From Gammaproteobacteria bacterium (lineage in GTDB: Bacteria; Pseudomonadota; Gammaproteobacteria; SZUA-152), in the NCBI GenBank assembly GCA_021647705.1, contig JAKIUF010000001.1, forward strand, positions 62,001 through 126,000: a DNA stretch of 64,000 nt, read 5' to 3'. The notes under the pieces are model-generated. The model had not been told where the DNA came from, did not search any database, and saw nothing but the letters and a program-made list of their open reading frames with translations. Within the stretch, counting starts at the first letter, position 1; each line of letters starts with the position of its first letter. Made by a program: the position numbers and the translations under genes. Of the stretch, positions 13,910-21,245 are shown piece after piece.

Positions 13910-14455
13910 TCCTGTTAGTAGTAGGGGTTTTGAATGGGTATAAGCAAGTGTGCTGTGTGCAAGGCAGTGTCTACCAGCTTATCGAACTCTCCAGATAGTC
14001 AGTACAAAGCTTAAGGATCGAATACGGCTTGCCGATGTGGTAACAGGATTCAACGTCAGCGGACCTGCTGCTGATTACTTTTCATTGTCAATTCCTGTTT
14101 GCAGGTTGAATATACGTATCAATCGCCAGCTTATTGATAATGAGAGTCAGTGTAGATTGAATCGAAATTGAAGTGGTTGATATGCTGTGAATTTCATGAA
14201 AAAAGGTGTTGCGTGTCTCAATACCAATGATTTCAAGGTGGTACGGTCGGTTTCAAGATGGTATGGTGAATTTCAAAATGGCGCAGTCCTTCTTCGTTTG
14301 GTTATGAGAGGGTCGCTTGTCGGGGGTGTCAAACCGCCGGATCTTGTGGTAACTCATATCATTTCTGCATCACCAATACCGGCGATCAAAGCAGAGAAAT
14401 GAGTATTTTTGTAATAAATACATTTGTACTTTTGTACATTTGAGGTAGTCAACTT
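13910..14455. other. Intergenic region with no convincing gene
   Basis: The 546 bases contain only short open frames without recognisable products. They hold the 20-bp tandem repeats listed separately. Just before the lipoprotein gene, two TTTGTAC direct repeats (14423-14437 region) sit where a promoter or operator would be expected. Confidence 0.5.
14231..14290 (+). repeat. Three in-register 20-bp tandem repeats (TTTCAAgrTGGtryggt)
   Basis: Units start at exactly 14231, 14251 and 14271, each opening TTTCAA(G/A)(G/A)TGG. A related half unit (GAATTTCATGAA) lies about 40 bases upstream. Ends of IS21-family insertion sequences carry several such short repeats, so this may be a solo IS end. An iteron-like regulator site is the alternative. 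No istA or istB sequence is nearby. Confidence 0.6.
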
Positions 14456-16735
14456 ATGTTGCTCAAATTGAACTTCAGTTTCACGTCATGGCCACTATTT
14501 CTAGTGATCTTAAGCACATCGTTATTATTTTCCTGTATGCCGGTTCCTGGTGATGAGGAAAAAGAAGATGATATAACGACAGGCAACGATTGCACTACAG
14601 TGCCGGATTTATTCACAAAAACAGTATGGCCGTCTGTCAGGGGAATTTGTGTTGATTGTCACAACCCGGGAGGGGTAGCCAATAATACCCGATTAGTTTT
14701 TAGCCAAGATGCTGATAAACAGACCGAAAACTACAATGTGTTACGGAATTTTTCTTTAGGCAATGCTGTAACGTTGTTAAACAAAACCATTGGATTACCT
14801 GTACACGGTGGTGGTGCCCCGTATGTTGATCAGTCCCAGCAGGAATATCAGAACTTGGATAGTCTGATTTCAGTGATGGAGAGAGAGTGTGGGGCGACAT
14901 CCACCGTTTCATTCTTTGATGATGTTCAGTTTTACAGTGAACAGGAAACACTGAAAAAAGCGGCGATTGTATTGGCTGGAAGACGCCCTGCGGTTAGTGA
15001 GCTTAATGCCGTGGCGGCAGGTGGGGAAGACAGCTTGCGAGTGACAATACGCAATATGATGCAGGGAGAGCGCTTTGAGCGTTTTTTGTCAGAAACGGCC
15101 AACAATCATTTTCTCAGTACAGGCCTTTCAGGTGGGGCAAATCGTTACCCGGTCGCCAGTGACTATCCAAAAGTAGATGACATTGCCAATAACACCGAGC
15201 GGACCATCTTTCGTGCAGCTGTACAGCAAGAGCCGCTGCAATTGCTTCGGTACATTATACGCAATGAGCTCCCTTACACAGAAATTTTAACCGCAAATTA
15301 TACTGTCGTGAATCCCGTTTTGGCGTCTATTTATGAGGCTGATGTACCAGGAGGATTTGATAATGAAATGGATAATTCGGAATGGCGGAAAGCAACGATT
15401 CCTGAGATGTTGCGTTTTGGAAGAATATATCCTCATGCGGGTGTATTAACCACTCACGCATGGCGGCAGCGTTTCCCTACGACAGCATCGAATCGTAATC
15501 GTCAGCGTGCAAAAATGGTATTGCTCCAGTTTTTAGGCGTAAATCTAGAGGCGTTGGCACAGCGCCCACTGGTAAGCGAAAGCCCGTTTCTTGTACCAAC
15601 GCTGGAAGATCCTGCTTGTACTTCTTGCCATAATATAATGGACCCGGTGGCTGGAGCCTTTCAAAACTGGGCAGACCTCAATCGATATCGACGATTCAGT
15701 GCTAACACGACGGCGCTTCCCTCTAGTTATAGAGGAAATAATTATCCGAGAGATGCTGATGGTAATGCTTATTATCAACGAGGGGATAATTGGTTTCGTG
15801 ATGTACTTCCACCGGGGTTTAACGGAGTTCTTGCACCAGGGGGGCATGAGGGAAATGAGGCAGCATTGCAGTGGCTTGGGCAAGAAATGGCGAAGGATAG
15901 CCGGTTTTCTATGGGAGCCGTCCATTTTTGGTATCACGGGCTATTTGGTGAAAAAGTATTAACCTCGCCGGGTGATAGCAGTGCCGCAGACTATCAAAAA
16001 CGCTTGAACGCTTTTAATGCCCAAGACAAAATTTTCCGGGAAATTGCAGCCCGCTTTCCCGATGACCGGGGCCATGGCGCTTACAATGTGAAAGACCTTC
16101 TGGTTGATTTGATTACCAGTCAATGGTTTCGGGCGTCGGGCATAGCGGAAGATGTTGCAGAAGAGCGGGCTATCGAGCTGGAAGCCGTCGGATCATATCA
16201 CTTGCTGACCCCAGAGCAGCTTTCGCGGAAAATGGAAGCGACAATGGGTGAATCCTGGAGTCGGCTGATGCCAATTACAAGAAGTTATGGTCTTCTTTAT
16301 GGCGGGTTTAATGCGAGAAACCTGATCGAAAGAAATACCTCAATCACTACCGTGCTCAATGCAGTATTGGAACGTATGGGCAATGAAGTTGGCTGTGATA
16401 TTGTCAAAAATGATTTTTTGGAATCAACGGACCAGCGTTTATTATTTCCCCTTGTTGAGTTAAATCACACGCCTGACAATGCCAGGGAAAATATTCTGCT
16501 CAATATTCAATACTTGCATAATCACATGTTAGGCGAGTTGTTGGCATTGGATGCTACTGAATTACTGCAAACGTACGACCTTTTTCAGGAGGTTTGGGAA
16601 AACCGTGATATTGCTCCGGAGGTTACATTGCGATGTAGTCTTAATAATCAAAATGATGCTGAATATAGCGGTCGCTCCTGGGTGATCGTGTTGTTGTATT
16701 TGATGAATGACCCACGATATATATACAGCTATTAA
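14456..16735 (+). CDS. Two-haem c-type cytochrome lipoprotein, DUF1592/DUF1588-like (759 aa)
   Basis: Exported lipoprotein with lipobox LLFSC (Cys27) and two c-haem sites, CVDCH at residues 65-69 and CTSCH at 388-392. Between and after them the sequence resembles the DUF1592/DUF1588 modules of planctomycete-type cytochromes: RNRQRAKMVLLQFLG before the second haem, then an NIMDPV segment after it. The size and one-haem-per-half layout suggest a surface or periplasmic electron carrier or oxidase; the activity is unknown. A GAGG Shine-Dalgarno precedes the ATG by about 10 bases. It is followed after 29 bases by a Tat-exported DUF1501 protein, a recurrent pairing for this family. Confidence 0.75.
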   Translation: MLLKLNFSFTSWPLFLVILSTSLLFSCMPVPGDEEKEDDITTGNDCTTVPDLFTKTVWPSVRGICVDCHNPGGVANNTRLVFSQDADKQTENYNVLRNFSLGNAVTLLNKTIGLPVHGGGAPYVDQSQQEYQNLDSLISVMERECGATSTVSFFDDVQFYSEQETLKKAAIVLAGRRPAVSELNAVAAGGEDSLRVTIRNMMQGERFERFLSETANNHFLSTGLSGGANRYPVASDYPKVDDIANNTERTIFRAAVQQEPLQLLRYIIRNELPYTEILTANYTVVNPVLASIYEADVPGGFDNEMDNSEWRKATIPEMLRFGRIYPHAGVLTTHAWRQRFPTTASNRNRQRAKMVLLQFLGVNLEALAQRPLVSESPFLVPTLEDPACTSCHNIMDPVAGAFQNWADLNRYRRFSANTTALPSSYRGNNYPRDADGNAYYQRGDNWFRDVLPPGFNGVLAPGGHEGNEAALQWLGQEMAKDSRFSMGAVHFWYHGLFGEKVLTSPGDSSAADYQKRLNAFNAQDKIFREIAARFPDDRGHGAYNVKDLLVDLITSQWFRASGIAEDVAEERAIELEAVGSYHLLTPEQLSRKMEATMGESWSRLMPITRSYGLLYGGFNARNLIERNTSITTVLNAVLERMGNEVGCDIVKNDFLESTDQRLLFPLVELNHTPDNARENILLNIQYLHNHMLGELLALDATELLQTYDLFQEVWENRDIAPEVTLRCSLNNQNDAEYSGRSWVIVLLYLMNDPRYIYSY

Positions 16736-16764
16736 ATACGCTTCAATTTAATCAGGAGACTATG

Positions 16765-18069
16765 ATGAAACGACGGGATTTCTTGAAACTCGTTAGCTCA
16801 GCGGGGGTTTGTGCAGCGATACCTTTCCCGTTGGGAACGGCATTTGGCGCAACATATTCACCTTATGAAGGCCCGATTTATTTTAATATTCATGTCAGTG
16901 GAGGATTGGATCAAAGTACATTTACCGATCCTCGTGAAGATTCGCTGATTAATACATGGGCAGATAATCAAGATGCCGGCATCGCGGGCAATATTCGTTA
17001 CGCACCGGTTCCTGGAAATCAGGCATTTTTTGATAAATATTACAAAGACATGCTGGTCATAAATGGCATTGACGGAGAAACTAATGGCCATGCTTCAGGT
17101 ACTGTTTCCCGCTGGAGTGGCCGATTGTCACGAGGTTACCCGAATACATGTGAGCTTATAGCCGCCACTTATGGTCAAGGTTTATCATTGCCGTATATAT
17201 CCCGGGGAGGGTATGAGGCAGGCGTTGGTATTATGCCGTATACGCGATTGTTTGATCTGAATATGATGAGAGCAGTTTCTTTGCCCAATCAAGCCAGTGC
17301 GACGAGCAACCACCTTAAGCAATCCGATCTTGATATTTTGCAGCGATACAAGCAGGCACGTATCGATACACTTAACAATACAAATACTTATCTGCCTGCA
17401 TTGACTCGTGCTTTCAGCGAAGTGGATATTGCATATCAAGGTAGAGACTCTCTGGAACGATTGGCCGACTATATTCCGTCCACAGGTCTCGATACTACAG
17501 ATGCCCAAGGGAATTCAACAAATTTTGTCAGAAATATCCACCTTGCACTGATTAGTGCGCAAGCGGGTTTGACGACATGTGTGAACTTAGCCAGTGGTAT
17601 CGGCTTTGACCTGCATGACAACTTTGATGCTCAGTCTGATGTAAGAATGCCTCAACTAACGGGGGCTATTGATTACTTGTGGGAAAAGTCAGAAGAATTA
17701 GGTCTGGCGGACAGATTGGTTGTTTTCATCAATACAGAATTAGGTCGAACTCCCCACTACAATGCTAACCAGGGAAAAGATCATCATAGAATTGGTAGTG
17801 CCATGTTTATGAAAAAAGATGCGACATGGGGCAATCGCGTGGTGGGTGCAAGTGATGAACGACATGCTGTTCTGAAAATAAACCCTCAGACTTTGCAGGT
17901 CGATGAAAACGGGATAGTGCTTAAACCAAAACACCTGATCCAAGCTTACCGGCAGCTCGCGGGTGTTGACCAAGGGGGACTGGCACAAAGTTATCCATTA
18001 AACGCGGAAGATGTTGATTTTTTTAACCCTGGAAAAAACACAGGATATACTGTTAATTTTAGAGCCTGA
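16765..18069 (+). CDS. Tat-exported DUF1501-family protein (434 aa)
   Basis: Secreted protein of the alkaline-phosphatase-like clan. The Tat signal KRRDFLKLVSSAG lies at the N-terminus, so it is probably folded with cofactor before export. The family's C-terminal metal region is recognisable in ELGRTPHYN and GKDHHRIGS. The ATG at 16765 has AGGAG 6 bases upstream, while the ATG three bases earlier is too close. Biochemical function of DUF1501 proteins is unknown; they usually sit beside DUF1588/1592 cytochromes, as here. It ends 5 bases before the thioredoxin gene, so they form one transcript. Confidence 0.75.
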   Translation: MKRRDFLKLVSSAGVCAAIPFPLGTAFGATYSPYEGPIYFNIHVSGGLDQSTFTDPREDSLINTWADNQDAGIAGNIRYAPVPGNQAFFDKYYKDMLVINGIDGETNGHASGTVSRWSGRLSRGYPNTCELIAATYGQGLSLPYISRGGYEAGVGIMPYTRLFDLNMMRAVSLPNQASATSNHLKQSDLDILQRYKQARIDTLNNTNTYLPALTRAFSEVDIAYQGRDSLERLADYIPSTGLDTTDAQGNSTNFVRNIHLALISAQAGLTTCVNLASGIGFDLHDNFDAQSDVRMPQLTGAIDYLWEKSEELGLADRLVVFINTELGRTPHYNANQGKDHHRIGSAMFMKKDATWGNRVVGASDERHAVLKINPQTLQVDENGIVLKPKHLIQAYRQLAGVDQGGLAQSYPLNAEDVDFFNPGKNTGYTVNFRA

Positions 18070-18074
18070 GCGCT

Positions 18075-18581
18075 ATGCATCATACTATTCCGGTTTGTAT
18101 CCTGATTTTAATTGTTTTCATCGTTCTGTCTGCCCCGGCAAACTCAGCAAAAATTGGCGATTCATATCCCATAACGCTGCCGTCCCTGTTCGATAGCAAA
18201 AAAAATATTTCATCAAATGATTTCAAAGAAAAAGTTCTCTATGTGGACTTTTGGGCTTCGTGGTGTATTCCATGTAGAAAGTCGTTACCACAATTGAATG
18301 AATTGAGGGAACGCTTAAAACGTAACGGCAAAGACTTTGAAATTCTGGCGATAAACCTGGATAGCGACCCAAATGAGGCGATAGCATTTTTGAATAAATA
18401 CCCTGTTGACTATCCTGTTGTATATGACGCCGAGGGAAAATACCCAAAGCTTTATGGCGTAAAAGGTATGCCGACATCTTATATTTTGGACCTTCAAGGG
18501 AAAATTAGATATGTACACAGTGGATTCAGAAGTAGTGACATCAAAAAAATTGAGGCACTGGTTCATGAGATGCTGCCTTAA
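18075..18581 (+). CDS. TlpA/ResA-like periplasmic thioredoxin (168 aa)
   Basis: Periplasmic thiol-disulfide oxidoreductase. A hydrophobic signal segment occupies residues 5-22. The redox site WASWCIPCRKS has cysteines 64 and 67, and the cis-proline loop is GMPTSY. Length is normal for TlpA/ResA proteins that reduce cysteines before haem attachment or keep partner thiols reduced. It lies between a c-type cytochrome pair and a small lipoprotein with a cysteine tail, so either could be its client. Its last 17 bases overlap the chosen start of the DUF4266 gene. Confidence 0.9.
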   Translation: MHHTIPVCILILIVFIVLSAPANSAKIGDSYPITLPSLFDSKKNISSNDFKEKVLYVDFWASWCIPCRKSLPQLNELRERLKRNGKDFEILAINLDSDPNEAIAFLNKYPVDYPVVYDAEGKYPKLYGVKGMPTSYILDLQGKIRYVHSGFRSSDIKKIEALVHEMLP

Positions 18582-18822
18582 AATACGCTCAGAATATTTT
18601 TTTTCCATTCGGTTTTATGGAGGGGTGATTATTTTGTTAAGCCTTTCCGGGCTGACAGGCTGTGCATCAGTTGAACCGTGGGAAAAGGGAATGTTGGCAA
18701 AACCCGAAATGGGTTGGACCCCCGACCCTATTGAGGCGGCAATGGAAAGTCATATTTTTTTTAGTAAAGAAGGCTCTTCCGGCGGTAATGTCTCAGGAGG
18801 CGGTGGATGTGGTTGTAATTGA
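18565..18822 (+). CDS. DUF4266-type small lipoprotein with C-terminal GCGCN tail (85 aa)
   Basis: Tiny lipoprotein. The signal ends in lipobox LTGC (Cys33); the mature part begins CASVEPWEKGMLAKPEM, the conserved core of DUF4266. A Gly/Ser-rich linker leads to the last residues G-C-G-C-N (Cys82, Cys84). The mature chain is only about 53 residues. The start at 18565 gives an Arg/Lys-containing signal and overlaps the thioredoxin gene by 17 bases; GTG or TTG codons further down would remove the positive charge. Function is unknown. The paired C-terminal cysteines look like a metal, thiol-redox or attachment site, and a TlpA-like protein sits immediately upstream. Confidence 0.8.
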   Translation: MRCCLKIRSEYFFSIRFYGGVIILLSLSGLTGCASVEPWEKGMLAKPEMGWTPDPIEAAMESHIFFSKEGSSGGNVSGGGGCGCN

Positions 18823-18851
18823 TCTGAGACTAACTAAAGAGGCCGTTATTG

Positions 18852-20003
18852 ATGGCTAAAAAACGACATCAAAATGCGGCTTTATTAACGCTGGTGACCA
18901 GCGCTTTTTCCTTGCCTGGAATAAGTGCAAAGGCAGAAGGGGTGCCAGATTCCACGTCGGTTAAATATCGTTATACATCGTATGTAGAAGATAACGCACC
19001 GGAACGATTCACTGTGGAAGGCGATCTTGGAAGGTATAAAATTCAGGCCAATCAAATTCAGCTTGTACAGCCAGTTGGCGAGCGCGCATCAATTACTTTT
19101 GATTATTTGTCAGAAACGATGAGTGGTGCATCACCTTGGGGAGTCAAACAGGGTGCTGACAATCAGCCAGAACTGATTATGAGTGGGGCAAGTATCAAGG
19201 AAGAGCGTCAAGATGTTGCTGTCCGATTAAAAGTTTATGACAAAGAAAGCAGCGTCAGTTTCATGGGAGGGCATTCGACTGAAAATGATTACAAAGCCGT
19301 GTATGGAGGGCTTGAAAATGAATTACATTTCAATCAAAAAAATACGACTGTTAAATCAGGGTTGAAAGTTTCTATAGATCGCATTAACCCGACGCAGGAA
19401 GAAGGGCAGAGCCGTGTCAGCGAAGAAGAAAAAAATAGCACCTCTTATAGTATTGGTCTTGCGCAGGTGCTAAACCCATCGGCTATTGTGCAGGTTGGTT
19501 TGGAGTATGCTCAGTTATCCGGTTATCTGACAGATCCATACAAATTACAGGATTCACGCCCGGATATTCGTAAACAAACAATAGCAAGTCTCGGTTATCG
19601 ACAATTTATTACATCAACCGATAGTGCCTTTCATTTGGATTATCGTTCTTATACGGATGATTGGAAAGTAAAATCACATACCATCAATGTTGCTTGGTAT
19701 CAAAATTTTGGTAGCAGGCATGTAATCGTTCCGTCAATACGTCTGTATAGCCAGAAAAAAGCAAAATTTTATGGCGTTTATTTTGAGGGGGGGGAAGCGA
19801 CCGAATATTTTTCCAGCGATTATCGGCTGTCTTCTTACGAGGCAATGAGTTATAAGTTAAAGTATATAAAATATTTTGACACTTGGTCGTTCACGGTTGC
19901 AGGGGAGCGATATGAAAGCGAGGGTAGCTCGGGAGAAATTGAAAACCCGGCTCTTGTGAGTTTTACTCGCTGGACAGTCGGGTTTGATATTAAATTTGAT
20001 TAA
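18852..20003 (+). CDS. DUF3570 outer-membrane beta-barrel protein (383 aa)
   Basis: Exported protein with a signal peptide (residues 1 to about 28, SAKA end) and a long series of alternating amphipathic strands ending in an aromatic-rich terminus (TVGFDIKFD), typical of a barrel. It matches the DUF3570 family by layout and by its position after DUF4266. ETMSGASP at residues 88-95 and a second MSGAS at 110-114 resemble the D-x-x-S/T-G-A-S/T sequence modified by ApbE flavin transferases, with Glu in place of Asp in the first. The ATG at 18852 is preferred to a TTG three bases earlier. It is followed after 108 bases by apbE. Function is unknown. Confidence 0.8.
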   Translation: MAKKRHQNAALLTLVTSAFSLPGISAKAEGVPDSTSVKYRYTSYVEDNAPERFTVEGDLGRYKIQANQIQLVQPVGERASITFDYLSETMSGASPWGVKQGADNQPELIMSGASIKEERQDVAVRLKVYDKESSVSFMGGHSTENDYKAVYGGLENELHFNQKNTTVKSGLKVSIDRINPTQEEGQSRVSEEEKNSTSYSIGLAQVLNPSAIVQVGLEYAQLSGYLTDPYKLQDSRPDIRKQTIASLGYRQFITSTDSAFHLDYRSYTDDWKVKSHTINVAWYQNFGSRHVIVPSIRLYSQKKAKFYGVYFEGGEATEYFSSDYRLSSYEAMSYKLKYIKYFDTWSFTVAGERYESEGSSGEIENPALVSFTRWTVGFDIKFD

Positions 20004-20111
20004 TTAATTTTTCTCATTCATCGTTTAAGCTGGGGCCAGGAATGCATGTGCATGAATGATAAAAAATGCCTTGAGCTAGAAATTTTAGAGCTTTGCTACT
20101 GATTCAATTTT

Positions 20112-20996
20112 ATGCAGACTCTCCATAAGCCAACGATTTCAGTGCTTTCTTTCACAGCAATGGGTAGCCCCTGTAAGCTGCATTTATATCTTACACAGAA
20201 ACAAGCCAATACAGTGCCGCAAGCGGCTTTAGATTGTGTTTTTGCGCTGGAAAAAAAATATTCCCGGTATCAAAGTGACAGTATTACGAGCATTATTAAT
20301 CGTAGTGCAGGTAGTGGACAATGCGTTCGTGTTGATTCAGAAACAGCAGCATTATTGGATTATGCGAATGATGCCTTTGAACAAAGCGATGGATTGTTTG
20401 ATATTACATCGGGTGTGTTAAGGAAAATATGGGATTTTAAAAGCGGAATTTTACCTTCCCAGGAAACAATCAACCAAACCCTTACGTTGATTGGCTGGCA
20501 AAAAATACGATGGCATAACCCATATATTGAACTCCCTGAAGATATGGAGCTCGATTTTGGTGGTTATGTAAAAGAATATGCTGCTGATACTCTGGCTACC
20601 TTCTGTATGGATAATGGTGTTACACACGGGTTAATTGACCTCGGTGGTGATATTCGTGTTATCGGCCCGCACCTGGATGGTAAGCCCTGGAAAATTGGTA
20701 TTCGTAATCCTGATAACCCGGAGAAAGCTTTGGCACACGTTGAAAGTACAGGAGGAGGGGTTGCGACAAGCGGTAATTATGAACGATGTATGGTTGTTGA
20801 TGGACATCGTTATGGCCATGTTTTTAATCCTCTCACTGGTTGGCCTGTCCAGGGATTGGCAAGTGTCACTGTGCAAGCGGAACACTGCCTGATTGCCGGT
20901 ACCCTGAGTACCATTACGATGTTAAAAGGCCGACCGGGAGGAGGGGAGTGGTTGCAAGACATGGGGCTGCCTAACCTTATAATAGAAGAACCCTGA
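20112..20996 (+). CDS. apbE: FAD:protein FMN transferase, lacking an export signal
   Basis: ApbE transfers FMN from FAD to a Thr/Ser of target proteins. Family segments are in order: DITSGVLRKIWDF, ELDFGGYVKEYAADTL (the usual DxGGxxKG region), GLIDLGGDIRVIG, ATSGNYER and GHVFNPLTGWPV. Length 294 is normal without a leader. The chain starts directly with family sequence, and an in-frame TGA 12 bases upstream rules out a longer signal-bearing form, so the enzyme appears cytoplasmic, whereas most proteobacterial ApbE proteins are exported lipoproteins. Its nearest candidate target is the DUF3570 barrel immediately upstream, which is inference. Confidence 0.92.
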   Translation: MQTLHKPTISVLSFTAMGSPCKLHLYLTQKQANTVPQAALDCVFALEKKYSRYQSDSITSIINRSAGSGQCVRVDSETAALLDYANDAFEQSDGLFDITSGVLRKIWDFKSGILPSQETINQTLTLIGWQKIRWHNPYIELPEDMELDFGGYVKEYAADTLATFCMDNGVTHGLIDLGGDIRVIGPHLDGKPWKIGIRNPDNPEKALAHVESTGGGVATSGNYERCMVVDGHRYGHVFNPLTGWPVQGLASVTVQAEHCLIAGTLSTITMLKGRPGGGEWLQDMGLPNLIIEEP

Positions 20997-21074
20997 TAAT
21001 GTTGAGTTGAGCCTGGGTTCATTCCTTTTGTTTGTTTTTAGTCAAAATTTAGAGGCTTAAGCTTCGAACAATCG

Positions 21075-21217
21075 TTCCAGAGTGTTGTGATGTTGTCGTG
21101 GTACTGACAAGTGCCGTGTTATAAACGCAGAGGTCGCAGAGGTCGCAGAGGCGCAAAGGGCGCAGAGAAAAACACTAAAAACTCTGCATTTCTGTGTCTC
21201 TGCCGCCTCTGCGTTTA
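21075..21217 (+). repeat. Palindromic intergenic repeat, copy 1 (AACGCAGAGG family)
   Basis: The core at 21123-21217 is a long imperfect inverted repeat opening AAACGCAGAGGTCGCAGAG and closing with its complement. A left flank (CAATCGTTCCAG...GTACTGACAAGT) recurs beside other copies near 23600 and 49880. It lies between apbE and the convergent fghA gene, and could act as a two-way terminator. Confidence 0.85.
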
Positions 21218-21245
21218 CAAGCACTAGATTTGACCAAGTACGCTT

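Follow-up and report, generated by a model that had tools for sequence, protein, structure and literature searches.

Why should a two-haem (di-haem) cytochrome lipoprotein and a DUF1501 protein head a gene block whose four remaining members belong to a described flavinylation system, and do the two halves act together? The question is raised by a 64,000-nucleotide stretch of contig JAKIUF010000001.1 (assembly GCA_021647705.1, positions 62,001 to 126,000) from a gammaproteobacterium of the SZUA-152 lineage, called the window here. Its block at 14456-20996 encodes, in order, the di-haem protein, DUF1501, a thioredoxin, DUF4266, DUF3570 and the flavin transferase ApbE. The open reading frame (ORF) list and its translations place all six genes on the forward strand in intact frames, with coordinates that held to about one codon, and the small gaps between these co-directional genes (26, 5, -17, 29 and 108 bp, in order) make the spacing operon-like. 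Our analysis reveals that the six genes are linked far beyond chance, and, with a probability of roughly 0.4, we read them as a horizontally moving operon that would encode a thiol-to-flavin-to-haem relay at the outer membrane, serving a di-haem/DUF1501 enzyme.

Recurrence of the six-gene block

A new finding is that the block is not confined to the window's family: it is also present in gammaproteobacteria of other families (G254, G033, Bermanella and Saccharospirillum) and in Sulfurimonas. One genome (G003), from another genus of the window's family, has the complete block in unchanged order but with other flanks, its proteins being 71-83% identical to those of the window, and in another (G001) the two halves of the block lie at contig ends. 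Overall, the six-gene set was found in the window, G003, G254, G033, Bermanella, Saccharospirillum (lacking the thioredoxin) and two Sulfurimonas genomes, and a third Sulfurimonadaceae genome carries it in a divergent arrangement. Bermanella and Saccharospirillum were examined because the di-haem pair was already known elsewhere in them, and the Campylobacterota search covered the genomes behind named loci. The Sulfurimonas loci L089 and L097 keep the same order and add a lipoprotein of about 195 aa with two CxxCH motifs before the thioredoxin. In the G254 locus (L112, G254:C24) an in-frame TAA interrupts the otherwise complete di-haem gene, which is either a pseudogene or affected by an assembly error.

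A di-haem profile scan of 84,980 species yielded 58 loci chosen blind to their neighbours. Besides the pair itself, the commonest neighbours of the di-haem gene were thioredoxin, DUF3570 and ApbE, on a list that also included three loci selected with knowledge of their neighbours (the window, L112 and L114); with these set aside, the counts are 5, 4 and 3. Moreover, DUF1501 was present in 68 and DUF3570 in 95 of 369 gammaproteobacterial genomes, with 37 containing both (odds ratio 5.0, p 2e-8, a nominal value uncorrected for kinship). At closer range, DUF1501 lay no more than 7 kb from DUF3570 in 16 of the 369 genomes, spread over 13 families, against 0.32 expected, these pairs having been matched by hand from coordinates. 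Because 13 of the 16 are arranged differently, most of them with DUF1501 and a haem-free lipoprotein running convergently next to the four-gene unit, the DUF1501-DUF3570 association is broader than the six-gene form. Furthermore, at eight loci of a third DUF3570 class, the opposite strand carries a nearby gene with a single CxxCH whose product is homologous to the di-haem core (hhalign probability 98%).

The pairing has more than one origin, because the DUF3570 tree, with seven six-gene rows, needs at least two changes and the di-haem tree, a quick tree, has at least three forced by well-supported branches. Nothing else in the sequence argues as strongly for function here as this repeated pairing. 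A preliminary description of the locus had suggested the di-haem/DUF1501 pair as the electron partner of the DUF3570 unit. The conserved linkage behind that suggestion is borne out, both by the six-gene set in several gammaproteobacterial families and Sulfurimonas and by the co-occurrence counts; an obligatory partnership is not, as most members of each half occur alone. These findings matter for both halves: DUF3570 systems, though common, lack a known terminal partner, the PSCyt/PSD cytochromes and DUF1501 are likewise families of unknown function, and the linkage of the two orphan sets gives each a testable partner.

Movement of the block

In a congener (G019), 222 bp separate the sequences that flank the block on the left (window to 14063) and on the right (window from 21107), and the interval holds a short ORF fragment that may be the remnant of a transposase C-terminus. 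In G020 the right block end falls at the same place, at 98% identity. The block has a G+C content of 0.44 in both the window and G003, where it lies within DNA of 0.57-0.59. The empty G019 site, together with the other flanks and alien G+C of G003, suggests horizontal movement, the block having apparently moved as a unit and behaving as a cassette with variable occupancy in the window family. No DUF3570 was found in viral contigs and plasmids.

The flavinylation unit

Proteins were assigned to families by Pfam and NCBIfam profile scans. The thioredoxin (redoxin/thioredoxin Pfam, 78.5 bits; matches to PF08534 and PF13905) has a Sec signal and a CIPC motif. DUF4266 (PF14086, 74.5 bits) has an LTGC lipobox and a CGC near its C-terminus, its start at 18565 being likelier than the listed ORF start at 18511. 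DUF3570 (PF12094, 193.7 bits) combines a Sec signal with SGAS at residues 92 and 112, the G-A-S of the second site being retained in the Sulfurimonas relatives, and ApbE (PF02424, 240.7 bits) is encoded 108 bp downstream of it. The four 3' genes belong to an established system: Meheust et al. (2021, eLife 10:e66878, PMC8238504) demonstrated flavinylation of DUF3570 by ApbE at two [S/T]GA[S/T] sites and found its gene grouped with those for ApbE, DUF4266 and a thioredoxin-like protein, in 285 clusters with DsbD and in 316 without. It was the only paper naming DUF3570 or DUF4266 found in the open-access literature searched.

The window block shares with the published clusters the four families, the [S/T]GA[S/T] motifs of DUF3570 and the C-terminal CxC of DUF4266, and its gene order is that of most four-gene loci examined here. 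It differs in that the operon is led by the di-haem lipoprotein and DUF1501 (in the parts of the paper that were consulted, neither DUF1501 nor any cytochrome, PSCyt-type or other, is mentioned as linked to DUF3570), in the match of its thioredoxin to PF08534/PF13905 where the paper names PF13899, and in lacking both DsbD at the locus and an export signal on ApbE. DsbD is given there as the electron source of the thioredoxin/DUF4266/ApbE-linked systems; because 316 of the published clusters are also without it, its presence in the cluster is not a defining trait of the wider system. The genome has two DsbD (PF02683) genes, both on other contigs and unlinked to the block.

The window ApbE lacks an export signal, an in-frame stop lying 12 bp before its ATG, and the DUF3570-linked ApbEs of the window type likewise have no hydrophobic N-terminus. 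This does not generalize to all DUF3570-linked ApbEs, since a hydrophobic N-terminus occurs in 9 of 105 rows, mostly in class B-type loci (an ORF set that includes duplicate loci). Other ApbEs in the set, one of them in the window genome, are clear lipoproteins. A signal-less enzyme with an exported substrate raises the question of where flavinylation takes place. Cytosolic ApbEs are known, for example for the Klebsiella fumarate reductase (PMC12052999), which is soluble, whereas the substrate of the window ApbE is exported. The sequence is most simply read as flavinylation preceding export: because ApbE has no export signal, it probably loads flavin mononucleotide (FMN) onto the barrel protein while this is still cytosolic.

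Variants of the unit occur elsewhere. A second thioredoxin-DUF4266-DUF3570 set with a TGSS motif (G000 contig C45, L003:4856-6899) adjoins a divergent msrPQ-like pair; it was rejected as an ApbE-free system, a matching ApbE being encoded on contig C40. The idea that motif-less DUF3570 paralogues (class B) lack ApbE failed as well, as the corresponding position reads SSAS/TTAS in them and a signal-bearing ApbE accompanies a few. The third DUF3570 class (L212:3-9293, also L202, L205, L206, L209, L214, L218 and L226), mostly without a linked ApbE and mostly with SSAS/TTAS rather than SGAS at the motif positions, adjoins divergent PSCyt-like, LamG-cytochrome and hydrazine-synthase-alpha-like genes. 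Matches of DUF3570 to Shiga-B-like profiles in NCBIfam were discarded as noise, being far below cut-off and covering the signal-peptide end.

The predicted DUF3570 barrel

A DUF3570 model built from five sequences (mean predicted local distance difference test score, pLDDT, 71; predicted template modelling score 0.70) has 16 strands, in which turns of 2-4 residues alternate mostly with longer loops. Its Foldseek matches are outer-membrane barrels throughout, and structural comparison gave Z values of about 15-21 to such barrels, including 21.5 for BamA, 19.3 for the polysaccharide secretin 4y25 and 17.3 for OmpG, which has the same strand order. DUF3570 is thus predicted to be a closed, even-stranded outer-membrane barrel with a signal peptide. 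Both SGAS sites lie in or next to the loop that follows strand 3 (residues 93-117), and, because both barrel ends would be periplasmic as in OmpG, topology predicts that this loop and its two flavin sites face outside. Flavins on the outer face of the barrel, should this placement be correct, would let electrons cross the outer membrane or run along it with no need for a multihaem wire.

For this half of the block, the preliminary description fared well: its conserved DUF4266-DUF3570-ApbE unit is published (PMC8238504) and was seen again in about 100 loci, its outer-membrane barrel agrees with the predicted fold and its matches, all six named families were matched by Pfam in intact frames, and the export signals it had seen in five of the six proteins were found in all but ApbE. 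Its count of four families without known biochemistry has to be reduced by DUF3570, an experimentally shown ApbE substrate whose association with thioredoxin, DUF4266 and ApbE is published.

The di-haem lipoprotein and DUF1501

The di-haem protein matches PSD4/DUF1592 at 30.7 bits (cut-off 23.3) and PSCyt3/DUF1588 at 24.5 bits, slightly below the 27-bit Pfam cut-off, and has a lipobox-like LFSC export signal and exactly two CxxCH motifs, at residues 65 and 388. The second haem site (C388/C391/H392) is invariant in 39 relatives and the first (C65/C68/H69) nearly so. With both domains and c-type haem sites, the protein is assigned to the PSD4/PSCyt3 di-haem kind. An AlphaFold2 model from 39 sequences (mean pLDDT 80) is largely helical, and a fold search with it against the PDB gave no usable match; a phycobilisome-linker-like C-terminus was rejected as too weak a resemblance (Z up to 4.9). 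The rubber oxygenase RoxC (NF051462), which calls for a full-length match of more than 900 bits, was also rejected, the protein reaching 25.5 bits over residues 12-147.

Among relatives of the di-haem protein, fusions to PA14, LamG, CBM96, F5/8C and fn3 domains occur. PSCyt/PSD proteins with carbohydrate-binding modules and sulfatases nearby have been reported in Verrucomicrobia and described there as of unknown function (He et al. 2017, PMC5615132). The window protein resembles the PSCyt3/PSD cytochromes of Planctomycetes and Verrucomicrobia (PMC5615132) in its PSD4 and PSCyt3 domains, its adjoining conserved partner gene and its relatives with carbohydrate-binding domains, and differs from them as a compact two-haem lipoprotein that has no such module and is joined to a predicted flavinylated barrel. 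Two loci (L081:2219-12898 and L087:2246-12949) encode giant cytochromes of about 3560 aa in which the di-haem core follows an N-terminal extension; that of L081 has ten PA14 stretches and an fn3 domain.

The DUF1501 gene directly follows the di-haem gene in nearly all of the 58 di-haem loci. In the window, its product matches PF07394 at 55.8 bits (cut-off 27) and has a twin-arginine translocation (Tat) signal, KRRDFLK (TIGR01409, 18.5 bits, cut-off 16.7, a profile that also matches the Tat peptide of CueO). D50, D283, H285, D340 and H341 are invariant over 50 sequences and may correspond to metal ligands of the alkaline phosphatase superfamily, which they resemble; a DUF1501 profile search of the PDB found no homologue. 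DUF1501-DUF1800 pairs adjoin chitin synthase genes (PMC5122149). On a Vibrio maritimus plasmid (L133:2964-15441), a complete tatABC adjoins a LamG-cytochrome/DUF1501 pair, which supports Tat export of the di-haem/DUF1501 pair. A family of haem-free lipoproteins of about 550 aa with no solid Pfam match (L185:5143-8275 and 10 similar loci) always immediately precedes a Tat-type DUF1501, and most of these sets are oriented convergently to the DUF3570 unit; no relationship to the di-haem protein was detectable (hhalign probability 0.1; one weak DUF1800 match).

The proposed relay and its alternatives

From this linkage we infer a flow of electrons and a type of substrate. DsbD, encoded elsewhere in the genome, would recharge the thioredoxin, which would hold the CxC of DUF4266 reduced; DUF4266 would in turn reduce the FMN groups on the DUF3570 barrel, whose flavins would hand electrons to the di-haem protein. 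The latter and DUF1501 would form an outer-membrane enzyme whose substrate would lie outside the cell and is less likely to be a metal than a polymer of the carbohydrate type. The polymer substrate is supported by the domains fused to the di-haem relatives, and the flavin-to-haem step by the nearest sister di-haem/DUF1501 pairs, which have in third place not the DUF3570 unit but a Tat-exported flavoprotein of the flavocytochrome c sulfide dehydrogenase (FCSD) type (families PF09242/PF21706, present in the sister loci L076 and L086). A flavin beside these haems is therefore recurrent, and in characterised FCSD the flavin donates electrons to the haem. The window block resembles FCSD in pairing an exported two-haem cytochrome with a flavin partner and differs in that its flavin would be FMN on a barrel and its di-haem protein belongs to another family; it was rejected as an FCSD, since a Pfam scan found no match to PF09242/PF21706 in the block. 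Near the Thiothrix di-haem/DUF1501/FCSD set (L086:5567-8048), an FMN-binding protein, a PepSY_TM protein and a porin mark another flavinylation system.

Several points weigh against the relay. The six-gene linkage is a minority form in which neither half needs the other: only a handful of about 100 DUF3570 loci have a di-haem gene in the operon, and about 4 of the 58 di-haem loci have DUF3570 within 10 kb. The direction of electron flow is argued by analogy, the window di-haem protein has no carbohydrate-binding domain, and the motif loop, at pLDDT below 50 and oriented from a five-sequence model, may fold into the pore since it is poorly modelled. The block might instead be a mobile cassette of two separate functions, whose two halves, the flavin unit with DUF3570 and the di-haem/DUF1501 pair, have only a niche in common (surface-attached, sulfur- or polymer-rich) and exchange no electrons. 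The solitary occurrence of each half in most genomes and the cassette behaviour described above fit this account, which we nevertheless regard as unlikely, given pairing in at least five lineages with mostly the same gene order, its repeated origin on both trees and the wider DUF1501-DUF3570 association in other arrangements.

A surface ferric reductase for iron assimilation, in which exposed DUF3570 FMN reduces Fe(III) and the di-haem protein is an accessory carrier, appears improbable. The predicted surface flavins would suit it, as would the 25 DUF3570 clusters that carry the ferrous iron transporter VIT1 according to Meheust et al. (PMC8238504). This explanation leaves DUF1501 and the carbohydrate-binding fusions of the di-haem family unexplained, and no iron transporter was recognised in the ORFs flanking the block, as judged from the ORF list with no family-library scan. 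Those fusions, among them PA14, LamG, CBM96 and fn3, the carbohydrate-binding PSCyt proteins with sulfatases nearby in Verrucomicrobia and the alkaline-phosphatase-like ligands suggested for DUF1501 would be accommodated by oxidative attack on an extracellular polysaccharide, a scheme that gives the di-haem protein the activation of oxygen or peroxide on a glycan, DUF1501 the release of phosphate or sulfate groups, and DUF3570 only the provision of electrons or a pore. We hold this to be very improbable: oxygen activation is speculative, no solved relative of the di-haem protein was found, and no glycoside-active gene was recognised among the flanking ORFs, again from the ORF list with no library scan. 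Least probable is a thioredoxin that serves maturation of the two-haem apocytochrome (ResA/CcmG-like) and not the flavin barrel, an idea prompted by its best NCBIfam matches, ResA and DsbE, and by two loci (L066 and L098) with a thioredoxin gene directly upstream of the di-haem gene and no DUF3570, but opposed by dozens of loci in which the same thioredoxin adjoins DUF4266-DUF3570 and no cytochrome gene lies nearby.

The thiol-to-flavin-to-haem relay shares an outer-membrane barrel and an exported c-type cytochrome with the porin-cytochrome conduits of the MtrCAB type, in which a wide barrel sheathes a multihaem protein; the window has a predicted 16-strand barrel and two haems only, and its predicted flavin sites are on the barrel itself. 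A multihaem porin conduit was rejected on these grounds and because no further cytochrome family occurs in the block. In its fullest form, the relay would represent a new class, with covalent FMN on an outward loop of a 16-strand barrel, a feed from thioredoxin and a CxC lipoprotein, a two-haem lipoprotein powering a Tat-exported DUF1501 enzyme, a barrel flavinylated by cytosolic ApbE before export, and movement as one cassette; that all of these hold together is doubtful.

Features of the locus

The coordinates are collected in Table 1. A promoter scan did no better than shuffles.

Table 1. Positions of genes, motifs and the variable segment in the window
Feature	Position	Strand	Remarks
Two-haem c-type cytochrome lipoprotein, 759 aa	14456..16735	+	PSD4/DUF1592 + PSCyt3/DUF1588-like core
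First haem site CVDCH	14648..14662	+	
Second haem site CTSCH	15617..15631	+	
DUF1501 protein, 435 aa, Tat signal	16762..18069	+	Pfam, TIGR01409
Exported TlpA/ResA-like thioredoxin, 168 aa	18075..18581	+	Pfam, NCBIfam; CIPC active site 18264-18275
DUF4266 small lipoprotein	18565..18822	+	C-terminal GGGGCGCN, CxC at 18808-18816
DUF3570 outer-membrane beta-barrel (predicted), 383 aa from ATG	18852..20003	+	TTG alternative start 18849; ApbE substrate family
First predicted flavinylation site SGAS	19122..19133	+	Loop between DUF3570 strands 3 and 4
Second predicted flavinylation site SGAS	19182..19193	+	Same DUF3570 loop as first site
ApbE flavin transferase, 294 aa	20112..20996	+	No signal peptide
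Segment missing in congener G019	14064..21106	no strand	Variable-occupancy cassette

Directly 3' of the block, an imperfect inverted repeat, AACGCAGAGG...CCTCTGCGTT, lies at window 21119-21220, and related copies are found in the congener flanks.

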